A DNA stretch of 64,000 nt. It comes from Flavobacteriaceae bacterium. GTDB taxonomy: Bacteria; Bacteroidota; Bacteroidia; Flavobacteriales; Flavobacteriaceae. The stretch is taken from assembly GCA_028279515.1 (NCBI GenBank), contig JANQNQ010000005.1, positions 310,001 through 374,000 on the forward strand, given 5' to 3'. Positions 7,444-18,781 of this stretch are shown in pieces; the first letter of the stretch is position 1, and each line of letters opens with the position of its first letter. The notes beneath the pieces are model-generated. The model was not told the origin of the DNA. It saw only the letters and a program-made list of their open reading frames with translations, and made no database searches. Both the position numbers and the translations under genes were made by a program.

Positions 7444-9315
7444 TTACTCTTTTTTGACGCTCAGTAATTTGGTCATCATGGCCTTTAATTCTTTAACCTC
7501 ATTTTCGAGGGCTTCGATGCGCGCGTCTTTGTCGTCGAGCTCCTTTGCGAATCGCTCATTCTCAGAAGATGTGAGATTTTCGGCATATTTGGCCCTTAAG
7601 GCATATGGAACACTAACAAACGGCGTCGTACCCATATTTGCATAGTTTCCACCTCCAGTGGGATCTAGCTCGACTCTCAACGAAATGCTGTTTGACCAAT
7701 CGATGTCGGCAAAGGTTCCGGATACGACGTTGCCATCACCGATTCTAAAATCTACTAACCCCGTGCCCGAAGTACTTACATTGTGGATCTCAGAGTATAC
7801 GGTTACGTTTCCGCCGCTAACGTCCACAATATTCATTCTAAAGCTAACCGATTGGTTGGCCAGAGGGTCACCAGACCCATCTTTTACTACACTTTGATAA
7901 TTGAGCAATTCTGGTACGGCGGCAACCCCAGAGCCTTGAGAGGAGCCTCCAACTTCGCCCCAGGCGGCGCCATCCCATATGTACAGTGAATTTTCTGTGG
8001 TGTCGTATACCATCAAGCCTGTATCAGCCCCACTCAATGGAGATCCCGATGCAGGGGCTGCTATCATGGCATTGCGTTGTGCGGTGGTCACTCGGTTGAT
8101 GAGTAGTCCCTTGTCGGTGTCGGCTAACGTGAGGGATGCATTTGTATTGGCGATCGTGGTTCCGATAGCGACACTAAATCTATTGGAAACGGTGTTGCCC
8201 CCTAACAATAAAGTGTTCGGAACATTGTTTGACACGTTGTTTCCAATGATGGCAGCTCTGCTTTGAAATGTTTGACTGTTTGCCCCTATAACAATTTGAT
8301 TACTTCTATCAATCGAAGTACTTGTCCTCGAATTATAGCCAAGAATAACATTGTCTGAGCCTCGGACTCTTGATTCATTTCCGATAAAAACGTTTCGGTT
8401 GGCCCCAGAGGTCAATGCGAAGTTTGCATTATGACCAAGACCCACATTATCATTCCCGGATCGGTTTAACGAACCTGCGATGGCTCCTAGATAAGTGTTT
8501 CTGTTTCCACCGATTAAGGTCGTTTCAGAGGTGTCATTGTTCCAGCCGGCTCCATAGCCCACAAAGGTGTTTAGGTCTCCTGCTTCGTTTCTGGCGCCTG
8601 CATTGTACCCAAGAAAGGTATTGGCCGTTCCATCAAGATTCGAGTGTCCCGATCCTCCTCCAAAGAAGGCATTGGCGATTCCGGTGTTGTTGGCAAAGCC
8701 GCTTCCTCTAAATGTAACAAGGTCTAAGTCGTATTGGTTTGTATTACCGAAAAATGCGTCGACATTGGTTTGTTCTCCAGTTTCTCCGCCTACAAAGGTG
8801 TTTCCGTTCCCGGTAGTGTTTGATCTACCTGCGGTTGAACCTATAAAGGTGTTTGATGCTCCTGTAGAATTGTTGAAACCCGAGTCTTCACCAACAAAGG
8901 TGTTGTTGGAGCCCGAGTCGTTGTTGGTTCCGGATTCTTCCCCGATAAAGGTGTTGTCTGTTCCTGTATTGTTTTGTTCTCCTGCTTCGGATCCAACAAA
9001 AGTGTTGTCGAATGTAGTGGTAAATTTACCAGCCTCGTGACCAACAAAAACATTTTCTCCGTCATTGGTGGCGCTGGCTCCTGCCATACTGCCGACCATT
9101 ACATTTCTCGAACCAGAGTTAAGGCTGGCTCCAGCTCCATCTCCGATCAACGTGTCAAAATCTCCTGTGGTCAGTGAGCCTCCAGTTGTATAGGTCACTT
9201 GCATTCCACCTTGATCAAAAGAAATAACGCTTTGTCCGAGGACTTCATTTGCAGTTTGGGCATGAATCGTAATACATCCGCATAAAAATGCGAACAGTAG
9301 TAATTTCGTTTTCAT
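7444..9315 (-). CDS. Secreted repeat protein with trimeric-adhesin-like head repeats and C-terminal coiled coil
   Basis: 623 residues with a signal peptide (about 1-20, ending IHAQ). About residues 55-375 consist of short repeats of the form NTFxGxxxGxxN, like the head repeats of YadA-type adhesins and some tail-fibre proteins. A segment with QRNAMIAAPASGSPLSGADT and LYIWDGAAW (about 410-455) and a beta domain (about 465-575, ending VPYALRAKYAEN) are common in Bacteroidota surface proteins. The C-terminus (about 580-623) is a charged coiled coil (DDKDARIEALENEVKELKAMM), suggesting trimers. No type IX sorting domain or membrane anchor is recognised. An adhesive or surface-layer role is inferred; the target is unknown. 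It has its own terminator and appears monocistronic. Confidence 0.75.
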   Translation of the reverse strand: MKTKLLLFAFLCGCITIHAQTANEVLGQSVISFDQGGMQVTYTTGGSLTTGDFDTLIGDGAGASLNSGSRNVMVGSMAGASATNDGENVFVGHEAGKFTTTFDNTFVGSEAGEQNNTGTDNTFIGEESGTNNDSGSNNTFVGEDSGFNNSTGASNTFIGSTAGRSNTTGNGNTFVGGETGEQTNVDAFFGNTNQYDLDLVTFRGSGFANNTGIANAFFGGGSGHSNLDGTANTFLGYNAGARNEAGDLNTFVGYGAGWNNDTSETTLIGGNRNTYLGAIAGSLNRSGNDNVGLGHNANFALTSGANRNVFIGNESRVRGSDNVILGYNSRTSTSIDRSNQIVIGANSQTFQSRAAIIGNNVSNNVPNTLLLGGNTVSNRFSVAIGTTIANTNASLTLADTDKGLLINRVTTAQRNAMIAAPASGSPLSGADTGLMVYDTTENSLYIWDGAAWGEVGGSSQGSGVAAVPELLNYQSVVKDGSGDPLANQSVSFRMNIVDVSGGNVTVYSEIHNVSTSGTGLVDFRIGDGNVVSGTFADIDWSNSISLRVELDPTGGGNYANMGTTPFVSVPYALRAKYAENLTSSENERFAKELDDKDARIEALENEVKELKAMMTKLLSVKKE

Positions 9316-9554
9316 AGGGGTGTTATTTAGTTATGTTAACAATGAGCGTATTCCTGTAAACTGTTGTCTTGAAGGGGGATACGCGGTTTTTCCGGTCGTA
9401 AATGTACAGATTCTATGCGCTTTCCAACAGGGTATTTTCGACTAAGCTAAAGGGTGATTTTCCCCTTGAGAAGTCTTAAAATAAATTGTAATAGAAGTTG
9501 AGTTTTATTTGAATCAGGAGTGTTTTGTGGAGATGAAATTTTTTATAGGAGAGG
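9316..9554. other. Intergenic region upstream of the surface protein gene
   Basis: No gene is seen. The region must carry the minus-strand promoter of the surface protein gene, but I could not find a clear TTG/TAnnTTTG pair. The stretch is AT-rich and without obvious repeats until the first 38-base element begins. Confidence 0.4.
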
Positions 9555-9559
9555 TTTCC

Positions 9560-9597
9560 CCAGGATTAACTTCGCTTCGCTCGTTTTTCCTGTCGTC
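9560..9597. repeat. 38-base repeat, copy 1
   Basis: Begins CCAGGATTAAC and ends CCTGTCGTC, with the inner phased motif CTTCGCTTCGCTCG. It is identical over 38 bases to copies at 9677 and 9780. The flank after it (TAGAGTTGCGTATGCC) differs from the other two copies. Confidence 0.9.
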
Positions 9598-9676
9598 TAG
9601 AGTTGCGTATGCCAATCTCGAGGTTTTCGGTTATTTCTTTTCTTCGGAAGGGTCTTGGTTAGGTTGGGAGCTTTCC

Positions 9677-9714
9677 CCAGGATTAACTTCGCTTCGCTCG
9701 TTTTTCCTGTCGTC
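9677..9714. repeat. 38-base repeat, copy 2
   Basis: Identical to copies 1 and 3. Its right flank CCGAATTTGCAAATGCA (to 9731) is shared with copy 3 and contains the palindrome ATTTGCAAAT. Confidence 0.9.
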
Positions 9715-9779
9715 CCGAATTTGCAAATGCAGGCCCGGCCTTTCTGTTTCTTTAGAGTTTTGAGGAAGGATGGTTTCCT

Positions 9780-9817
9780 CCAGGATTAACTTCGCTTCGC
9801 TCGTTTTTCCTGTCGTC
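9780..9817. repeat. 38-base repeat, copy 3
   Basis: Identical core, same right flank as copy 2 (to 9834), followed by a small perfect hairpin AACTGCC-GTT-GGCAGTT at about 9840-9856. The three units are spaced 117 and 103 bases apart, start to start. Confidence 0.9.
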
Positions 9818-9912
9818 CCGAATTTGCAAATGCAAAACCCAACTGCCGTTGGCAGTTTCTTTTTTGTTCTTCGGTTTCTCAGGAAAGTGAACTTTCCTTC
9901 AAATCCTAGAAC

Positions 9913-9943
9913 AAAAAAACCCGAAACTCTCGTTTCGGGTTTT
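9913..9943 (-). terminator. Terminator downstream of tRNA-Phe
   Basis: Perfect 12-bp arms AAAACCCGAAAC (9916-9927) and GTTTCGGGTTTT (9932-9943) with a 4-base loop. On the minus strand the hairpin ends in seven T, directly after the tRNA. Confidence 0.9.
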
Positions 9944-9953
9944 GCACTTGTTG

Positions 9954-10026
<73 letters not shown>

Positions 10027-10124
10027 TCGCTAAAGCGGATGCAAATATAAAATGCTTTTAATTATTCCCAAAAGAATTTTTTAAAAAAATCAGTTTCGTA
10101 AATTTACGCTTTTTAAGCGAGAAT

Positions 10125-10853
10125 ATGAATCTTATTATTGACGCAGGGAATACGCAGGTGAAAGCTGCTGTATTTCAACAAAATGAAATCATCTATCGAG
10201 ACGAAGTGTCCTATGATGCGTTGGATTCATTTTTCGAAAAATTACTTCAAGATTTTGATCAGGTAGATCATGCGATTCTGTCCTCTGTGGCACGCGTGCC
10301 TGAGAAGGTCGTTAAAAACCTTTCTAAAAAAGTGTCAGTGCTCCAATTGAGCCATGAGACTCGGGTTCCTTTTGAGAATTGCTACACCTCTCCAGAAACT
10401 TTGGGGGTAGATCGCATAGCTCTTGTGGTGGCGGCCACTATGAAATATCCTGGGGAAAATGTGCTGGTTATCGATGCCGGAACATGTGTTACCTTTGATT
10501 TCAAGAACGAAAATGAACAATATGTAGGTGGAGCCATTTCACCAGGAATTCGCATGCGTTATCAGTCGCTCAACGACCTTACCGCCAATCTTCCCTTGCT
10601 TGATACCGACCTGCCGAAATCCTATATCGGAGATTCCACGGCAAATTCGATCCATTCGGGAGTAGTTAACGGAATTTTAAGAGAAATAGAGGGGGTCATT
10701 GATCAGTATCTGCAAGAATTTCAACATTTAACAGTTATTTTAACAGGAGGAGACGCGCTATTTTTGTCAAAATCTCTAAAAAATAGCATATTTGCGAATT
10801 CAAATTTCTTGCTAGAGGGATTGAATTTCATAGTTGAATACAACAAAAATTAG
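10125..10853 (+). CDS. coaX: Type III pantothenate kinase
   Basis: 242 residues, the usual size for CoaX. The ATP-binding N-terminal motif DAGNTQ (Asp6), the GVDR motif (94-97) and the IDAGT motif (116-120) followed by GGAISPG (135-141) match type III pantothenate kinases of the ASKHA fold. It phosphorylates pantothenate in the first step of coenzyme A synthesis, in the cytoplasm, and is insensitive to CoA feedback in characterised members. It is the first gene of a plus-strand cluster; its stop TAG touches the ATG of the next gene, so the two are translationally linked. Confidence 0.95.
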   Translation: MNLIIDAGNTQVKAAVFQQNEIIYRDEVSYDALDSFFEKLLQDFDQVDHAILSSVARVPEKVVKNLSKKVSVLQLSHETRVPFENCYTSPETLGVDRIALVVAATMKYPGENVLVIDAGTCVTFDFKNENEQYVGGAISPGIRMRYQSLNDLTANLPLLDTDLPKSYIGDSTANSIHSGVVNGILREIEGVIDQYLQEFQHLTVILTGGDALFLSKSLKNSIFANSNFLLEGLNFIVEYNKN

Positions 10854-12101
10854 ATGGTCAGAAAGATTTTTATCGCAATGGCGATGGTAGTAGCGACCTT
10901 AAGCTACGCTCAAGAAGGAACGGCATCTCCTTATTCGTTTACTGGATTAGGAGAGCTAAAGTTCAAAGGAACGGTGGAGAATAGAACGATGGGGGGCTTG
11001 AGTGTTTTTGGCGATAGTATTCACCTTAACCTAAATAACCCTGCGGCTTTTAGTGAGCTAAAACTTACTACGTACGCTATCGGGGTTGATTACAGTACAA
11101 CACGACTTAATGCGGCTTCGGGTAGCGATAACACCACAGCGGCTTCTGTGAATTATTTGGCAGTTGGTATCCCAGCTGGAAAATTTTCTTTTGGTTTCGG
11201 ACTACTTCCTTTTACCTCTGTTGGCTATCGTTTACAATCTACAAATGATGACGAGACAATCACAAATCTATATCAAGGAGAGGGCGGAGTTAACAAAGTA
11301 TTCTTATCTTTAGGGTATCAGATTGTAGATGGTCTAAGTGTCGGTGCTACAGGTAATTATAACTTCGGGAACATTCGAAATCAAAATACGCGTGTTATCC
11401 AAGATGTACAGTATGCAACACGAGAAGATAACCGATCGGATCTAAGAGGGCTTGATTTTAAGTTTGCCGTTAACTACAAAAAACTGATCAATTCGAAGAA
11501 TACACTTTATGCTTCGGTGCTTTTTACCCCCAAATATGACCTAAGTTCTGAGAACTCAAGAACAGTAGCGGTTATCCCTACATTTGACCAGCAACCAGGA
11601 GGTGATTCTGAAGATATTGACCTTGGCGTTTTAAGAAAAACTGACCTCACGCTTCCGTCTAGCTTTACGGTAGGTTTGGGGTATGGAGAAAATAAAAAAT
11701 GGTTTGTTGGGTTGGATTATACCACACAAAAGACCAGCGATTTTGAAAATGTTCTGGTGAATCTCGATAATGTAACGTACGAAGACGCAAGTAAAATTTC
11801 GATAGGAGGATTTTATATCCCGAAATACGATTCGTTTTCAAGTTACTGGAGTCGAATCACTTACAGGGCTGGATTACGCATTGAAAAGACTGGGCTGAAC
11901 ATCAACGGAGAGTCAATAAATGACTTTGGCATGAGTTTTGGATTAGGTTTGCCAGTTCGAGGATTTTCAAATGTAAACATAGGATTTGAACTTGGACAAA
12001 GAGGAACCAACAATGCTGGGTTGATTAAAGAAAATTATTTTAATTTGCGCCTAAGTTTATCGTTAAACGACAAATGGTTTCAAAAATCAAAGTATAATTA
12101 A
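10854..12101 (+). CDS. Outer membrane beta-barrel protein
   Basis: 415 residues with a signal peptide (about 1-20, ending LSYAQ). The rest alternates beta strands and turns rich in Gly, Asn and aromatic residues (for example FSFGFGLLPFTSVGYRL and FWKSY-like strand ends), and it starts with ASPYSFTGLGELKFKGTVENR, a segment common in flavobacterial outer membrane proteins next to coaX. The C-terminal region LRLSLSLNDKWF fits a last barrel strand. Substrate and function are unknown. It starts directly at the coaX stop and is followed after 19 bases by a TPR protein, which suggests joint expression. Confidence 0.75.
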   Translation: MVRKIFIAMAMVVATLSYAQEGTASPYSFTGLGELKFKGTVENRTMGGLSVFGDSIHLNLNNPAAFSELKLTTYAIGVDYSTTRLNAASGSDNTTAASVNYLAVGIPAGKFSFGFGLLPFTSVGYRLQSTNDDETITNLYQGEGGVNKVFLSLGYQIVDGLSVGATGNYNFGNIRNQNTRVIQDVQYATREDNRSDLRGLDFKFAVNYKKLINSKNTLYASVLFTPKYDLSSENSRTVAVIPTFDQQPGGDSEDIDLGVLRKTDLTLPSSFTVGLGYGENKKWFVGLDYTTQKTSDFENVLVNLDNVTYEDASKISIGGFYIPKYDSFSSYWSRITYRAGLRIEKTGLNINGESINDFGMSFGLGLPVRGFSNVNIGFELGQRGTNNAGLIKENYFNLRLSLSLNDKWFQKSKYN

Positions 12102-12120
12102 CCACATAACTTTTAAAGAG

Positions 12121-13503
12121 ATGAAAAAGAAGATTACATTAATGATCGTGGGATTGGTTGCCGGAGTAGGTTTACTAACTGCTCAAGACAACCAAGAGTG
12201 TATGACCAATCTTTCCATTTTTGCAGAACATGCAAAGGTTAAAAATTACGATGCAGCTTACGAGCCTTGGATGAAGGTGAGAAAGGATTGCCCAAAGTTA
12301 AACGTTGCGACGTTCTCTTATGGTGAAAAAATCCTAAAGCACAAGATCAAGAATGCATCAGCAGGAGAAAAAACACAGTATGTTAATTCATTGTTGAGTC
12401 TTTATGATGAGTGGCTTGCGAACTTCCCATCTAAGAAAGGGAAAAGCGTCAAAGGAAGCATCATCAGTAAGAAAGGACAGGCGATGGTAGACTATAAGAA
12501 AGGTTCTAAGAAGGATATTTACGATACTTTCGATAAGGCCTACACTACTGATAAAGAGAGTTTCTCTTATCCTAAGAGTTTGTACTACTACTTCTCTACC
12601 TTGTACGATTTGTATAAGACCAATGGGGTTAGCATGGAGCAACTTTTTGACAAGTACGAGGATGTTTCTGAAAAGTTTGAGGATGAAGGCAAGAAACTTG
12701 CTAAGAAATTGGATGTGATCCTTAATAAAGAAGAAGCTGGTACACCACTTACTTCTAGAGAGACAAAAAACAAAAGAGTATACAATGTAAACTCTACAGC
12801 TATCGGAAAGTATTCTGGAAACATGGATGCCATCATCGCTAAAGAGTCTACTTGTGAGAACTTGATTCCTTTGTACAAAAGAAACTTCGATGCAAACAAA
12901 AATAATGCACTGTGGATTAAAAGAGCAGCGAGTAGAATGGATGCTAAGGATTGTTCTGACGACCCATTGTTCGTAGAGTTGGTTGAAGCGCTACATGCTT
13001 TAGAGCCTTCTGCAAAGTCAGCATATTACCTTGGGTTCTTGAACGACAAGAAAGGAAAAACTTCTGAAGCAATCAGATATTACGAAGAGTCTATCAATCT
13101 GGAGACTGACGGTTACGAAAAAGCGAAGACGCTTTATAAGATCGCTACCAAGTTCAAGAAAAGAGGACAAAAGTCAAAAGCGAGAAGCTATGCAAGACAA
13201 GCACTTAAGTTTCAGCCTTCAATGGGGAAAGCGTACTTGTTGATCGCTAACCTATACGCAAGCAGTGCTAACCAATGCGGAAACACGCAGTTCGAAAAAA
13301 GAGCCGTGTACTGGTTGGCTGCTAACACAGCAAGAAAAGCTGGAAACGTAGATGCTTCAGTAAAGTCTTTGGCTAACAAGACTGCAGCGAGTTACTCAGG
13401 TAGAGCGCCAAGTAAAACGGATATCTTTACCGAAGGAATGCAAGGTAAGACCGTTACCTTCAACTGCTGGATCGGAAGCAGCGTTAAGGTGCCAAACCTA
13501 TAA
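12121..13503 (+). CDS. Exported tetratricopeptide-repeat protein
   Basis: 460 residues with a signal peptide ending LLTAQ (about 1-22). TPR-like helical hairpins are visible around residues 290-385 (AYYLGFLNDKKGKTSEAIRYYEESINL, then KAKTLYKIATKFKKRGQKSKARSYARQALKF). It is lysine-rich, unlike its neighbours. It is probably periplasmic and acts as a protein-interaction scaffold for the envelope cluster in which it lies, between an outer membrane protein gene and lptC. No enzyme motif is seen. A terminator-like hairpin occurs 35 bases after its stop, inside the next gene. Confidence 0.75.
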   Translation: MKKKITLMIVGLVAGVGLLTAQDNQECMTNLSIFAEHAKVKNYDAAYEPWMKVRKDCPKLNVATFSYGEKILKHKIKNASAGEKTQYVNSLLSLYDEWLANFPSKKGKSVKGSIISKKGQAMVDYKKGSKKDIYDTFDKAYTTDKESFSYPKSLYYYFSTLYDLYKTNGVSMEQLFDKYEDVSEKFEDEGKKLAKKLDVILNKEEAGTPLTSRETKNKRVYNVNSTAIGKYSGNMDAIIAKESTCENLIPLYKRNFDANKNNALWIKRAASRMDAKDCSDDPLFVELVEALHALEPSAKSAYYLGFLNDKKGKTSEAIRYYEESINLETDGYEKAKTLYKIATKFKKRGQKSKARSYARQALKFQPSMGKAYLLIANLYASSANQCGNTQFEKRAVYWLAANTARKAGNVDASVKSLANKTAASYSGRAPSKTDIFTEGMQGKTVTFNCWIGSSVKVPNL

Positions 13504-13505
13504 GA

Positions 13506-14063
13506 ATGAAGCATCTCTTTAAAAATATATTTAGAAGCATTGTCACAGTATTCACTGTGACAATGTTTTTTTCATGCGAAGATAATTTTAGAGAGATCCA
13601 AAAAATTAACCTTACTTCGCTCTCACCAGCAGGTGTAGGAGAGGACATTCGCATGGTCTATACAGATTCGGCAAGGGTAAGAGCCATTCTTACCAGTCCG
13701 CGTTATCAGGATTACTCAAATCGGTCATTTGAGTTTGCAGAATTTCCGGATGGAGTTATGGTCGAATTCTTCGATGATAACAACAATAAAAGTACCATCA
13801 AGGCCGATTATGGGATTCTGTACAATCAGACCAGCTTGGTCGATTTGCAGGGCAATGTTGAGCTGGTAACTCATGATGGTGTTACGCTCACGACATCACA
13901 ATTGTACTGGGACCAGAAGAACGAATGGATTTTTACGGAAAAAAGATTTAAATTTACCAGTGAAGACTTTGATGTTGACGCCGAAAGATTGGATGCCAAC
14001 CGAGACTTCACAACGTTTTTCACCGGGGAAGGTACCGGAGATGTCAACCTAGACGAAAACTAA
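13506..14063 (+). CDS. lptC: LPS export protein LptC
   Basis: 185 residues. The N-terminus is hydrophobic and ends in FFSC (Cys24), so this is a lipoprotein form of LptC. The body matches the LptC/OstA fold: SFEFAEFPDGVMVEFFDD, IKADYGILYNQTSLVDLQGNVELV and LTTSQLYWDQKNEWIFTEK, the repeated beta-strand pattern of the periplasmic LPS bridge. It takes LPS from the LptBFG complex and passes it to LptA-like proteins. The gene begins 2 bases after the TPR gene. Codons 11-23 contain a strong terminator-like hairpin, which is unusual. An internal ATG at 13563 would remove the signal and is unlikely to be the start. Confidence 0.88.
   Translation: MKHLFKNIFRSIVTVFTVTMFFSCEDNFREIQKINLTSLSPAGVGEDIRMVYTDSARVRAILTSPRYQDYSNRSFEFAEFPDGVMVEFFDDNNNKSTIKADYGILYNQTSLVDLQGNVELVTHDGVTLTTSQLYWDQKNEWIFTEKRFKFTSEDFDVDAERLDANRDFTTFFTGEGTGDVNLDEN
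13535..13572 (+). terminator. Terminator-like hairpin inside the 5' end of lptC
   Basis: Perfect 11-bp arms CATTGTCACAG (13538-13548) and CTGTGACAATG (13555-13565), extendable to 14 pairs with flanking AAG/TTT, a 6-base loop and then seven T (13566-13572). It has every mark of an intrinsic terminator but lies within the signal-peptide codons of lptC. It may terminate untranslated transcripts from the upstream genes. Confidence 0.7.
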
Positions 14064-14079
14064 CAACCACATCACTACG

Positions 14080-14280
14080 ATGAAATATCACAAATTCTCA
14101 GAGATCATTTACGCGATCATTGCACTCATTGCTACGTATAAAACCTATACCGAGTGGAATATCGACAGAAACCGCGCCTACCTTTTTCTAGGTTTCGCAA
14201 TACTTTCGCTATTTATGTTCTTCTTTAGAAGGCACTTCAGAAAGAAATTCGAAAAGAGAAAGAATCAGAACCAGAGCTAA
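14080..14280 (+). CDS. Small two-helix membrane protein of unknown function
   Basis: 66 residues with two predicted membrane helices (about 7-22 and 33-50) and a very basic C-terminus (RRHFRKKFEKRKNQNQS). It sits between lptC (16-base gap) and the CorC-like gene (0-base gap, TAA followed at once by ATG), so it is surely expressed with them. I do not recognise a named family. The basic tail would lie in the cytoplasm. Confidence 0.75.
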   Translation: MKYHKFSEIIYAIIALIATYKTYTEWNIDRNRAYLFLGFAILSLFMFFFRRHFRKKFEKRKNQNQS

Positions 14281-15576
14281 ATGGTTTTCTCGATAGCGAT
14301 CATAGTTATTTGCTTATTGCTTTCGGCATTTTTTTCTGGGATGGAGATTGCCTATGTTTCTGCGAATAAGATCCATATCGAGATCGAGAAGAAGCAAGAG
14401 GGCTTTCTCTCTAATCTCCTAAAAACCCTTACCAAAAAACCTTCAAAGTTTATCGCCACCATGTTGGTCGGTAATAATATAGCCTTGGTCATTTACGGGT
14501 ATTTTATGGGAGAGCTTTTGACCAATTGGTTCAAGCAGTCACTTCCCATTGAAGGTAACTGGTCATTTTTGAACATACTGCTTACCGATTTTAGTCTGCT
14601 TACTCAAACACTGATCTCAACGTTTGTCATTTTAGTGACAGCCGAGTTTCTACCCAAAGTGTTTTTTCAGATCTATGCCAATAGCTTCTTAAAAGTATTT
14701 GCACTTCCAGCATCGTTTTTCTATTACTTATTTTGGCCAATTTCTTGGGGCGTTATGCGCGTCTCTGACTTGGTGCTGAAGAAATTTTTGAAGACAGATG
14801 GTGACAACGTGCAATCGGCCTTTAGTAAGGTAGAGCTTGGGGATTATATCTCAGAACAGATGGAATCGGTCGAAGACAGTGAAGAAGTGGATTCTGAGAT
14901 CCAGATCTTTCAGAATGCGCTCGAATTTACAGCCGTGAAAGCCCGTGAGGTCATGGTGCCTCGAACAGAGATAGTCGCGGTGGCGTTAAGCGAAACACCG
15001 AAGCAGTTACGTCAATTGTTCATCGATACGGGTTATTCTAAGATATTGGTCTTTAAGGATACGATTGATGATATCATTGGCTATGTGCATTCGTTTGAGC
15101 TTTTTAAGAAGCCCAAAACCTTGCGGAGTGTACTCTTGCCAGTGGAATTTGTTCCCGAAACTATGCTAATAAACGATATCTTGGATGTCCTTACCAAAAA
15201 GCGAAAGAGCATGGCGGTAGTTCTTGATGAGTATGGAGGGACTTCAGGAATTCTCACCGTTGAAGATATCATTGAAGAGCTCTTTGGAGAGATCATCGAT
15301 GAGCATGATACGGTAGCACTTTTAGAAGAAAGGATCGATGAATACGAATATCGACTTTCTGCCCGAATCGAGGTAGATTATCTCAACGAAAACTACAAGT
15401 TAGACCTTCCTGAAAGTGAGAATTATGAGACCTTGGGAGGGCTGATCGTAAATCATACCGAAGAGATTCCAGAACAGGGAGAAGTAGTTACGATTCAGAA
15501 TTTTCAGTTCACGGTTGAAGAAGTTTCAAACACAAAGATCGACACCCTTTTTCTCAAAGTGTTAAAGCCTGAATAA
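14281..15576 (+). CDS. CNNM/CBS-domain transporter-like protein (CorC/HlyC family)
   Basis: 431 residues. The N-terminal DUF21/CNNM membrane domain covers about 1-185 with four hydrophobic segments (ISIAIIVICLLLSAFFSGMEIAYVS is typical). Two CBS motifs lie at about 205-325 (VMVPRTEIVAV; KSMAVVLDEYGGTSGILTVEDIIEELFGEI), and a CorC/HlyC domain at about 340-425. Family members are linked to magnesium or cobalt export and, in Bacteroidota, to gliding-associated protein GldE. GldE is a related protein, so this could be a GldE paralogue; the sequence does not settle it. It lies in the lptC-ppiD envelope cluster. Confidence 0.85.
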   Translation: MVFSIAIIVICLLLSAFFSGMEIAYVSANKIHIEIEKKQEGFLSNLLKTLTKKPSKFIATMLVGNNIALVIYGYFMGELLTNWFKQSLPIEGNWSFLNILLTDFSLLTQTLISTFVILVTAEFLPKVFFQIYANSFLKVFALPASFFYYLFWPISWGVMRVSDLVLKKFLKTDGDNVQSAFSKVELGDYISEQMESVEDSEEVDSEIQIFQNALEFTAVKAREVMVPRTEIVAVALSETPKQLRQLFIDTGYSKILVFKDTIDDIIGYVHSFELFKKPKTLRSVLLPVEFVPETMLINDILDVLTKKRKSMAVVLDEYGGTSGILTVEDIIEELFGEIIDEHDTVALLEERIDEYEYRLSARIEVDYLNENYKLDLPESENYETLGGLIVNHTEEIPEQGEVVTIQNFQFTVEEVSNTKIDTLFLKVLKPE

Positions 15577-15676
15577 TTTTTCTGCAAAATCCTCAATTAA
15601 TCAACTTTTTGGCTTTCATTATTAAATACTAAATCGTATTTTCGCCCACTGTAATTTTATAAAAAGTTAAAGAAAA

Positions 15677-17791
15677 ATGGCAATTCTTGGAAAAATTAGA
15701 CAACGTTCTATCTTTTTGATCTTAGTGATCGGTTTGGCGTTGTTTGCTTTCGTAATCTCTGGTGTTTTTGACAACAGTGGTAGTGTGAGCACATCGCCTA
15801 ATGTTGCGACAGTGAATGGAGAAGATATATCGATTGCTGAATTCCGTGGAGAAGTTGATGCGGCGCAAAGAAGATACGGAGCGAACATGTCGTCTACACA
15901 AGCGGCTAATATTGTTTGGAACCAAAAAATCAGACAAGCAGTTCTTAACGGACAGTTTGATGAATTGGGATTGGATATCGGCAAAGACCAACTTTCTGAT
16001 TTGATCACCAACAACCCAGGTTTTGCTTCGAATCCAGAATTTCAAAACGAAGCAGGGCTTTTCGATATCAATAAGTATATCGATTATCTAAAAGATGCCA
16101 AAGTCAACAATGTACAAGCGTACAATTTCTATAAGCAACAAGAAGATTACGCAGTGGCTGCTGCCAAAGAGCAAATGTACTTCAACCTGATCAGAGCAGG
16201 TGTTGGAGGAACATTCAAAGATGGTGAGCTAGAGTACAGATTAGAGAATGATAAAGTAGACATCAGCTTTGTTCAAATTCCTTACTCATCTATCGCTGAC
16301 AGTACTGTACAGATAACCAAAGGCGAAATCAAGAAATACATTGAGTCTCACCAAGATGATTTTCAGGTGGAAGATGCTCGCGATCTTCAGTTCGTCGTAT
16401 TCGAAGACAAAGCCTCTAAAGAAGATGAAGTAAACATCGAAGCTGATATCACAGCTTTGTTAGATGATACTGTTGAATACAACGACGTTTCTAAGTTGAA
16501 CGATTCAATTCCTGGATTTAAGAATGCTGCTGATGTTGATGAGTTCTTGGCAAAGCACTCTGATGTTAAGTATGATTCTATTTTCAAAGCGAAGAAAGAC
16601 CTTCCAGCAGTATTTGCCGATTCTATCTTCAATCTAGAAAAAGGAGCTATTTACGGTCCGTATAGAGATGGTGAGTACTTCAAGTTGACCAAGATGATCG
16701 ACAAGAAGGCAGAAGGTTCTGTAAAGGCAAGCCATATCCTAGTAGCTTATAAAGGAGCAACAAGAGCAGCTGAGACGGTGACAAGAACTAAGGAAGAAGC
16801 TGAAGCAAGAGCAAAAGAATTGTTGGCTGAAGTAAAAGGAGATGTTGAGAAGTTTGCAGACGTAGCTCGTGCAAATTCTGATGGGCCTTCAAAATCTCAA
16901 GGTGGTGACCTTGGATACTTCGAAGAAGGAGCCATGGTGAAAGATTTCAACGACTTCGTTTTTGGAAACGCAGTAGGAGCTGTTGACCTCGTTGAAACTG
17001 AATTTGGATTCCACGTAATCAAAGTTGATGACAAGCAAGATATCGTAAGAGTAGCGACCTTGGCAAAAGAAGTTGAGTCTTCAGAGAAGACCCAGAACGC
17101 TTTGTTCAACACGGCTTCTAAGTTCGAAATTGCTGCTGGTGAAACTGGAGATTTCGGAGAGACAGCAAAGACAAGCAACTACAATGTTCGTAGAGCAGAC
17201 AACGTAAAAGAGTTGGACGAAAACCTGCCAGGTATGCAAAGCCAGAGAGGAATCGTACAATGGGCGTTCAATCCAGAGACCAAAATTGGCGACATCAAAA
17301 GATTCCAGGTAAATGGAGGATATGCTGTTGTACAGGTTACTGGTGCAACTGAAGCTGGACTTTCATCTGTAGAAGATGCTTCAGCTCGTGTATTACCAAT
17401 CCTTAAGAAGCAAAAGAAAGCGAAAATGATCATGGATAAGAATGCAGATGCGATTGAGCTTACTGCTTTGGCTACGGCTAACAATACAACCGTGAGAACG
17501 GCTTCTGCTTTGAATATGAAAAACCCAACCATTCCTGGTGCCACAAGAGAGCCTAAAGTAGTAGGAGCTGCTTTTGGACTTGGACAAGGTACAGTTTCTG
17601 ACTTTATCGAAGGAGAAGCTGGTGTTTATAAGATCGCAGTTAACCGTGTTGAAAAGGCGCCAGACCTACCAAGTTATGCGGCTTACGCGAACACCGTAAA
17701 AGGAAACTTAAAGAGTCGAGCAAACAATGCAGCGTACAACGCGCTTAAAGATGCTGCCGACATTGAGGATAACAGAGCAGAATTTTACTAG
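15677..17791 (+). CDS. ppiD: Periplasmic peptidyl-prolyl isomerase/chaperone PpiD-like (SurA N-domain and PpiC domain)
   Basis: 704 residues. One N-terminal membrane anchor (about 12-30, SIFLILVIGLALFAFVISGVF) is followed by a SurA_N-type helical domain (to about 190) and a parvulin rotamase domain (about 345-455: KASHILVAYKG, GGDLGYFEEGAMVKDFNDFVF, EFGFHVIKV). A second, degenerate parvulin-like segment may follow. PpiD assists folding of proteins leaving the Sec channel. It is 100 bases after the CorC-like gene and ends at a terminator. The length is typical for Bacteroidota, somewhat longer than the E. coli protein of about 620 residues. Confidence 0.92.
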   Translation: MAILGKIRQRSIFLILVIGLALFAFVISGVFDNSGSVSTSPNVATVNGEDISIAEFRGEVDAAQRRYGANMSSTQAANIVWNQKIRQAVLNGQFDELGLDIGKDQLSDLITNNPGFASNPEFQNEAGLFDINKYIDYLKDAKVNNVQAYNFYKQQEDYAVAAAKEQMYFNLIRAGVGGTFKDGELEYRLENDKVDISFVQIPYSSIADSTVQITKGEIKKYIESHQDDFQVEDARDLQFVVFEDKASKEDEVNIEADITALLDDTVEYNDVSKLNDSIPGFKNAADVDEFLAKHSDVKYDSIFKAKKDLPAVFADSIFNLEKGAIYGPYRDGEYFKLTKMIDKKAEGSVKASHILVAYKGATRAAETVTRTKEEAEARAKELLAEVKGDVEKFADVARANSDGPSKSQGGDLGYFEEGAMVKDFNDFVFGNAVGAVDLVETEFGFHVIKVDDKQDIVRVATLAKEVESSEKTQNALFNTASKFEIAAGETGDFGETAKTSNYNVRRADNVKELDENLPGMQSQRGIVQWAFNPETKIGDIKRFQVNGGYAVVQVTGATEAGLSSVEDASARVLPILKKQKKAKMIMDKNADAIELTALATANNTTVRTASALNMKNPTIPGATREPKVVGAAFGLGQGTVSDFIEGEAGVYKIAVNRVEKAPDLPSYAAYANTVKGNLKSRANNAAYNALKDAADIEDNRAEFY

Positions 17792-17818
17792 TAGTTAGTT
17801 TCTGTTTAGATATAAGAA

Positions 17819-17847
17819 GAAGGATGCTCGAAAGAGCGTCCTTTTTT
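17819..17847. terminator. Terminator after ppiD
   Basis: AAGGATGCTC-GAAA-GAGCGTCCTT stem with one T-G pair, followed by six T. It touches the stop codon of the convergent GHMP kinase gene and could serve both strands. Confidence 0.85.
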
Positions 17848-18781
17848 ATTTGACCATTTCTGAGTAAGGTACGATGGTTTTAAACCCCTTTTTAGCGAAG
17901 TAATCAAAGACTAGGTCACTTGCTCCCGTAGCAAGGACAAAATCCCCTCCCCAAGCACCTAGACTTTTAATACTGTGTGGATACGCATCAAAAAGTCGTT
18001 CTTTTACCGTAGGTAATTTGATGATCGAAGCAATGAGCTGCTCATGTTCATCAAGTAGAGACTCAAATGATGACAATGATGTGGCCTTGGACAATTTCTC
18101 GGTAATGTTTGATATAGCAGCAATCGATGAAGCTAGGTCTCCTGTATACTCACGATAGCGTGCAATACCTTCACGGCTATTCTGTTTTGCGTTTAAGTGA
18201 ACAAAGAATAGTTGATCTTTGAAACTCGGCTCAAACGTAACTGGAGTCGCTTTGGGCTCTTTGTTGTTCAACTGATAAGTAATAGGCTGGTCGTGTTGGG
18301 CGCAGGCAATGTCATATCCACTCCCCGAAAAGGCATTCCAAAGCAATATGTAAGGGTCAACCTCGGCCCATTGCGCAATGTTATTGATCAAGGTCGATGA
18401 AGACCCAAGCCCCCACGCAGGGTCAAAGTCCAGTTGAGTGATAACCTCATATCCAGCTTCCTCTAAAAGGAAACTTGGACGCAAACGGTGTGCTTCCGAT
18501 AACAGACGAACGAGTGTCTCGGTAACGCCTCGATAATTTAGCCCTTCCCCCGAAAGGGGAATAATATCAAGTGTATTTTCTTTTTTTTCTATGCGGAAGG
18601 CACCCTCGAACCAAACCTGGCCTTGGTGGTCCAAGCTGGTCCATTTTAGGATAGATGCATCCAAAGGTCGCGCCTGAAGCGATTGCCCTTTTTTAGTCGG
18701 TACGGCAAGTGAAAGAGCTCCGTCGAGTACTAGATACTCACCGCTGATCAAGAGTTTTCCGTTGCTGTAGAATTCTTTCAA
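17846..18781 (-). CDS. GYDIA-family GHMP kinase, phosphomevalonate-kinase-like
   Basis: 311 residues with GHMP kinase motifs: GKLLISGEYLVLDGALSLAVP near the N-terminus, the ATP-binding WGLGSSST (about 121-128), GSGYDIACA (about 148-156) and GAWGGDFVLA (about 273-282). The GKxLxxGEYxVLD and GSG(Y/F)D(I/V)A motifs resemble phosphomevalonate kinases such as Erg8. It overlaps the HMG-CoA reductase gene by 4 bases (ATGA), so the two are translationally coupled, which supports a step in the mevalonate pathway. Which phosphorylation it performs is inferred, not shown. It has no signal peptide and should be cytoplasmic. Confidence 0.85.
   Translation of the reverse strand: MKEFYSNGKLLISGEYLVLDGALSLAVPTKKGQSLQARPLDASILKWTSLDHQGQVWFEGAFRIEKKENTLDIIPLSGEGLNYRGVTETLVRLLSEAHRLRPSFLLEEAGYEVITQLDFDPAWGLGSSSTLINNIAQWAEVDPYILLWNAFSGSGYDIACAQHDQPITYQLNNKEPKATPVTFEPSFKDQLFFVHLNAKQNSREGIARYREYTGDLASSIAAISNITEKLSKATSLSSFESLLDEHEQLIASIIKLPTVKERLFDAYPHSIKSLGAWGGDFVLATGASDLVFDYFAKKGFKTIVPYSEMVK

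Follow-up and report, generated by a model that had tools for sequence, protein, structure and literature searches.

The locus raises the question of what a hairpin with the form of a transcription terminator does inside the signal-peptide codons of lptC, a gene whose product is required for LPS transport to the cell surface in those Gram-negative bacteria that have been studied well. The window (the whole 64,000-nt stretch of DNA that was analysed) carries coaX, OMP, TPR and lptC as one head-to-tail run, continued by a small membrane ORF, a CNNM/CorC-like gene and then a SurA/PpiD-like gene. The order coaX-OMP-TPR-lptC was retained in all of the relatives checked over 5-10 kb (9/9). The gene names of the original prediction, from coaX to the CorC-like gene, hold in the Pfam search, with the OMP match below the cut-off:

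10125-10853, + strand: coaX (Pfam Pan_kinase)
10854-12101, + strand: OMP, FadL-like (Toluene_X match below the Pfam cut-off)
12121..13503, + strand: TPR gene, directly upstream of lptC (Pfam TPR matches)
13506..14063, + strand: lptC, 185 aa, lipoprotein signal peptide with Cys at codon 24 (ORF; Pfam LptC PF06835, E 4e-10)
14080-14280, + strand: 66-aa membrane ORF between lptC and the CorC-like gene, without Pfam match
14281-15576, + strand: CNNM/CorC-like gene (Pfam search; close spacing)

On the - strand, the window also encodes at 7444-9315 a 623-aa secreted protein of repeated NTFVG..AG-type units, with the look of a repeat-rich surface protein. In another genome of the collection, the intact lptC is followed after about 1.4 kb by a second, broken lptC-like copy with three stops (G021:C1:1689972-1690316).

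The hairpin spans 13538-13572 and consists of a 12-bp Watson-Crick stem, a 4-nt loop and seven U, all within lptC codons 11-23 and reaching up to the lipobox codons:

13533..13537, + strand: outer flank AGAAG, able to form two G-U and three A-U pairs to the U-tract, as in the MFE structure
13538..13549, + strand: 5' arm of the stem, CATTGTCACAGT, lptC codons 11-15, with compensatory changes in 12/12 pairs
13550..13553, + strand: loop ATTC (sequence and fold)
13554..13565, + strand: 3' arm of the stem, ACTGTGACAATG, lptC codons 17-20, with compensatory changes
13566..13572, + strand: U-tract of seven T, codons 21-23 (Phe-Phe-Ser), predicted transcript 3' end

A perfect stem of 11 bp with a 6-base loop, 35 bases after the TPR stop, had been predicted. 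The stem is indeed perfect, with a length of 12 bp and a loop of 4 nt, and it starts 34 nt past the stop codon (13501-13503); the seven T and their placement in codons 11-23 are as described. Five extra pairs are gained if the U-run is drawn into the stem, as in the MFE structure, and only 5 of the 12 stem pairs are G-C. The MFE of the 71-nt segment is -22.1 kcal/mol (z = -5.0; 0/200 shuffles as stable), a significance that single-sequence shuffles overstate. Since the peptide VTVFTVT alone sets much of the pairing, relatives were needed, and the comparative tests are the decisive ones. A terminator scan of the window performed in this analysis scored the hairpin at -19.7 kcal/mol, within the range of the window's intergenic terminators, while a simple terminator scan overlooked it, probably because the stem runs into the T-run. 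The hairpin is unique in the 4.57-Mb genome, being the single significant match both of its palindrome and of a covariance model (for the model, E 1.1e-9; next 0.03). The Rfam search of 9000-18000 returned only tRNA-Phe above the gathering threshold and no relevant match at the hairpin, and a known RNA family was discarded on this result. Consensus promoter scans gave nothing decisive on an lptC promoter.

For the comparative tests, 181 loci from within the family and order supplied lptC 5' ends, 149 of them from Flavobacteriaceae; the window's genus is represented in the collection by this one genome, and the comparison was made at the family and order level. The 20 codons before the lipobox Cys have a median MFE of -20.5 kcal/mol in the 149 Flavobacteriaceae loci, and the same proteins written with random synonymous codons only reach a median of -8.8 kcal/mol (p <= 0.005 in 117/149 loci). 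The proposal that relatives keep the stem by codon choice was thus borne out by the comparison of lptC 5' ends, in which recoding loses stability and a terminator is present at the same lptC site in 130 of the 149 loci.

In the alignment of 148 sequences, double-sided compensatory changes were found at all 12 stem pairs (12/12). Stem cells are paired in 88.6% of cases. With the partner displaced by 1-3 columns, pairing over all of the 13-pair structure is 25-52%. Double-changed cells number 426 against 124 in shuffles (0/500); none of the 500 shuffles matched the observed pairing, double changes, pair types or covariation. Among the relatives, 115 different stems were counted. Both orientations of the G-U pair are present (82 and 61), a sign that the structure forms in single-stranded RNA with the sense of lptC. 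When the changes were mapped by Fitch parsimony onto a tree of the TPR proteins, about 152 double changes were reconstructed, of which 87 fall at codon positions 1/2 and usually alter the protein; these counts depend on the MAFFT alignment. The same fold is formed by unrelated peptides, such as SIAATLFAAML, VMVLLLTITL and LGLVVATSL. In one relative (L023, genome G006), the hairpin and T7 are intact, the lipobox now reads FFSF with its Cys lost, and a second lipoprotein signal peptide lies downstream. The comparative tests confirm, at the level of sequence, that the hairpin is selected as RNA on the lptC sense strand and, in the best explanation, the signal-peptide amino acids of LptC are partly dictated by the RNA stem.

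The U-tract is nearly invariant (set A1). In hairpin-bearing genes, TTT accounts for 96/96 and 121/122 Phe codons, against an expectation of 0.81; Leu, where it replaces Phe, is encoded by CTT in 30/30 (expected 0.19; p 4e-22). T-runs of 6-9 were found in 123 of the 130 relatives with the terminator, and lptC genes without the hairpin have mostly short T-runs. An intrinsic terminator needs both a stem and an adjoining U-run, a combination that no other obvious function calls for. The element combines three features of an intrinsic terminator, namely a stable short-loop stem (about -20 kcal/mol), an adjacent U-tract and RNA-level selection on the transcribed strand.

The position of the terminator was studied by scanning 1.6 kb per locus, with a call at <= -10 kcal/mol plus a T-run, thresholds that were chosen for this analysis. 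Apart from the lptC site, only 4-5 comparable sense-strand terminators were found in the 243 kb of the same loci. A TPR homologue lies directly upstream of lptC in every Flavobacteriaceae locus with sufficient upstream sequence, and the gap between the TPR stop and the lptC ATG is mostly -1 to +2 nt. The stem ends at a median of 62 nt past the TPR stop and 62 nt past the lptC ATG, the latter distance being near fixed in the family (57-66 nt, 5-95%). At longer TPR-lptC gaps, the hairpin stays in lptC, with the stem end up to 161 nt past the TPR stop; this staying with lptC, and not moving to the intergenic position, fits a link to lptC too. True losses were counted in 17 loci (e.g. L004, L063, L066, L075 and L120), setting aside L023 and L139, the latter with a broken T-run. 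Fourteen of the 17 losses are in genomes of 1.4-2.1 Mb. The terminator is dispensable in the small genomes that lost it, and the losses look as if streamlining genomes drop operon fine-tuning.

Outside the order, the presence of the terminator follows the upstream gene. In 90 loci of other orders, it was found in 19/37 with TPR upstream and in 2/53 without it (p 1.5e-7), an association confounded by phylogeny. Most other-order loci with OMP but no TPR upstream do not have the terminator, and it was discarded as a class-wide universal feature of lptC. Where present outside the order, it comes about 40-90 nt after the TPR stop. It lies in the lptC signal peptide in families f20, f47, f65, f24 and f44, begins at the lptC start codon in f25 (L205, L226, L246), and in f30 (L225, L228, L235, L248), and only there, is upstream of the likely lptC start and apparently intergenic. 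The TPR-lptC junction terminator of f51 (L188, L203) has a long nested stem. In four loci of family f5, no TPR gene was found within 1.8 kb; in the three of them that were read in detail (L174, L177, L183), OMP lies directly upstream of lptC and the signal-peptide codons of lptC still hold a terminator-like hairpin, though its sequence differs. The covariance model recognises the same element outside Flavobacteriaceae in L157, L158, L170, L222, L240, L230 and L186. Taken together, the comparison shows that the hairpin and U-tract go with the gene boundary that follows TPR (or OMP).

As an indirect measure of expression, the fraction of C-ending Phe/Tyr/Asn/Ile codons (WWC) was calculated. It is 0.67 for TPR, in the range of this genome's ribosomal-protein genes, compared with 0.31 for coaX, 0.36 for OMP, 0.42 for lptC and 0.39 for CorC, and TPR exceeds lptC in this proxy in 109/148 loci (p 8e-11). 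Since the codon bias of TPR is the highest, the terminator sits just behind the most highly expressed-looking gene among those in front, and the TPR product is probably very abundant, judging from its codons. The OMP had originally been taken as the abundant upstream product; the codon-optimised gene is TPR and not OMP. The more general idea is supported, namely a selected hairpin of terminator type that stands between lptC and a gene with the codon bias of high expression, and that every lptC transcript has to pass.

The reading that we favour, with a probability of about 0.66, is that the hairpin is the intrinsic terminator of the coaX-OMP-TPR unit, and that lptC and the genes behind it are fed by read-through at a fixed low ratio. 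RNA polymerase leaving the TPR gene would transcribe the stem and U7 and in most cases let go of the RNA near 13572, so that the TPR mRNA ends in a 3' tail of about 69 nt; the minority of RNA from read-through would carry lptC together with the small membrane gene and the CorC-like one. In its simplest form, this would be a partial terminator that acts constitutively: most TPR transcripts would end there, a minority would be passed on, and the lptC genes would be kept at a fixed low ratio to the TPR gene. On this reading, the terminator is embedded in the first 23 codons of lptC because TPR and lptC abut. Since any lptC RNA from the start codon contains the hairpin, lptC and its followers would need read-through, unless a downstream promoter serves the followers. 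Probably, most mRNA ends after the TPR gene and LptC is made only from read-through. We infer termination itself, its efficiency, and stoichiometry as the benefit of the hairpin.

A translation-gated attenuator was weighed as the first alternative. Here, ribosomes re-initiating at lptC after TPR, close behind RNA polymerase, would cover the 5' arm and suppress termination. The geometry in Flavobacteriaceae is ideal for such coupling, with the stem end 57-66 nt from the ATG and a TPR-lptC gap of about -1 to +2, and the hairpin stays with the ATG as the gap grows. In F. johnsoniae, the region from -20 to +20 is kept unpaired for translation initiation (PMC6847099), and the stem begins just beyond that zone. 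Nevertheless, gating demands that the hairpin be in the translated part and at a workable distance, and with the f30 terminators before the likely start and those of f25 at the start codon, the geometry is no general requirement. In addition, no antiterminator helix beyond controls was found upstream: the longest complement to the 5' arm in the 155 nt upstream was 6.5, compared with 6.2 in control stretches. By our reasoning, the ribosome would also have to trail the polymerase by 35-50 nt after one stop and one start, and gating is not needed to explain the hairpin. For the same reasons of position and missing antiterminator partner, the ribosome-entry switch of the original prediction is not supported in the form in which it was put. 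Given that the terminator lies before or at the lptC start in some families, together with its association with TPR, fixed attenuation is favoured over a ribosome-gated switch, which we regard as unlikely, though worth keeping in mind.

It is less probable still that the lptC signal peptide acts as its own regulated attenuator, conserved across Flavobacteriales, in which opening of the stem would follow ribosome movement through the nascent lipoprotein signal. If this were true, LptC supply would respond to the envelope translation or export state.

Another function for the stem would be in stability or processing, either protecting or defining an RNase-made 3' end of the TPR mRNA, or slowing ribosomes in the signal peptide for membrane targeting. 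In favour of such roles is the stable stem in the signal-peptide codons of most Flavobacteriaceae. However, the adjacent T-run is selected beyond amino-acid need, which is predicted by termination and not by these alternatives, and the f30 terminators hold the same junction outside the coding part, with no signal peptide involved. Two other lipoprotein genes of the window's genome that partly match the model (L283, L286) do not have such a stem, as judged by eye. We consider these roles distinctly improbable.

The stem could also be read as DNA, as an operator for a CRP/FNR-like regulator, since in the window TTGTCACAGT-N4-ACTGTGACAA makes up a 24-bp inverted repeat whose only imperfection is its 4-nt centre; a sequence-specific operator is ruled out, with very little probability left to it, by a stem that varies freely with compensation and accepts G-U pairs, the pattern of RNA folding, and by its near-uniqueness, with just two further, imperfect sites in the 4.57-Mb genome at <= 3 mismatches. 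Finally, Val (GTN) and Thr (ACN) codons are complementary in register, wobble opposite wobble, so that the alternating peptide VTVFTVT by itself sets most of the stem pairs in the window sequence and, with the Phe-Phe codons after it, might look palindromic by chance or inheritance, but this by-product is ruled out as practically negligible by the loss of fold on synonymous recoding, the slide and shuffle controls, the 115 distinct stems and unrelated peptides with the same fold, the compensatory changes at codon positions 1/2, and the relative L023, which keeps the stem without the lipobox.

Under partial termination with read-through, the prediction is that Flavobacteriaceae LptC is made only from read-through transcripts. 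The locus would then be a clear order-wide case of a terminator inside protein-coding sequence, with RNA pairing, alongside protein function, choosing amino acids in the signal peptide of a conserved envelope protein. Gene-by-gene annotation and terminator searches limited to intergenic regions miss such elements. The finding also advises caution against recoding the start of lptC or treating its signal peptide as freely variable.

In the literature on lptC in Flavobacterium and on intrinsic terminators in Bacteroidetes, covered in part and by titles and abstracts, no such element was reported, and the search, again of partial coverage, found no Flavobacterium Term-seq paper. In the parts of the main text of the F. 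psychrophilum transcriptome that were consulted (PMC9723704), nothing on the TPR-lptC locus was found. Conserved RNA structures are known in the same bacteria, as in Rfam families such as Flavo-1 of Flavobacteriaceae, but the lptC site has no relevant Rfam match.

Translation-dependent transcription attenuators are of the trp/his leader type. The lptC hairpin resembles them in being a terminator that a ribosome could override. Unlike those leaders, it has no separate leader peptide or antiterminator partner. It is lptC itself that supplies the coding part, and where the hairpin lies with respect to the start codon varies from family to family.

Closer parallels are found among internal terminators. 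ORF-internal 3' ends and premature termination have been described in E. coli, some via intrinsic terminators, e.g. aceK int (PMC7815308, consulted in part), and share with lptC a transcript end, here a predicted one, inside a coding region. Those ends were found by 3'-end mapping, and the part of that work consulted contains no signal-peptide terminator with order-wide compensatory evolution. At the SBP-translocator junctions of Clostridia ABC importers, operon-internal intrinsic terminators in long intergenic regions set stoichiometry (PMC9045158), and internal transcription termination is common in an archaeon, according to the part of the report consulted (PMC10450193). As in these systems, a hairpin and U-run lie at lptC within one gene run, here between parts that look high- and low-expressed by codon bias, and partial termination would set the ratio. 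Internal terminators themselves are known; what seems new is one whose whole sequence also encodes a signal peptide and which is maintained by compensatory evolution that changes amino acids. Whereas the Clostridia terminators are intergenic, that of lptC is wholly protein-coding and sits in the signal peptide, and its pairing shapes the protein across the order.
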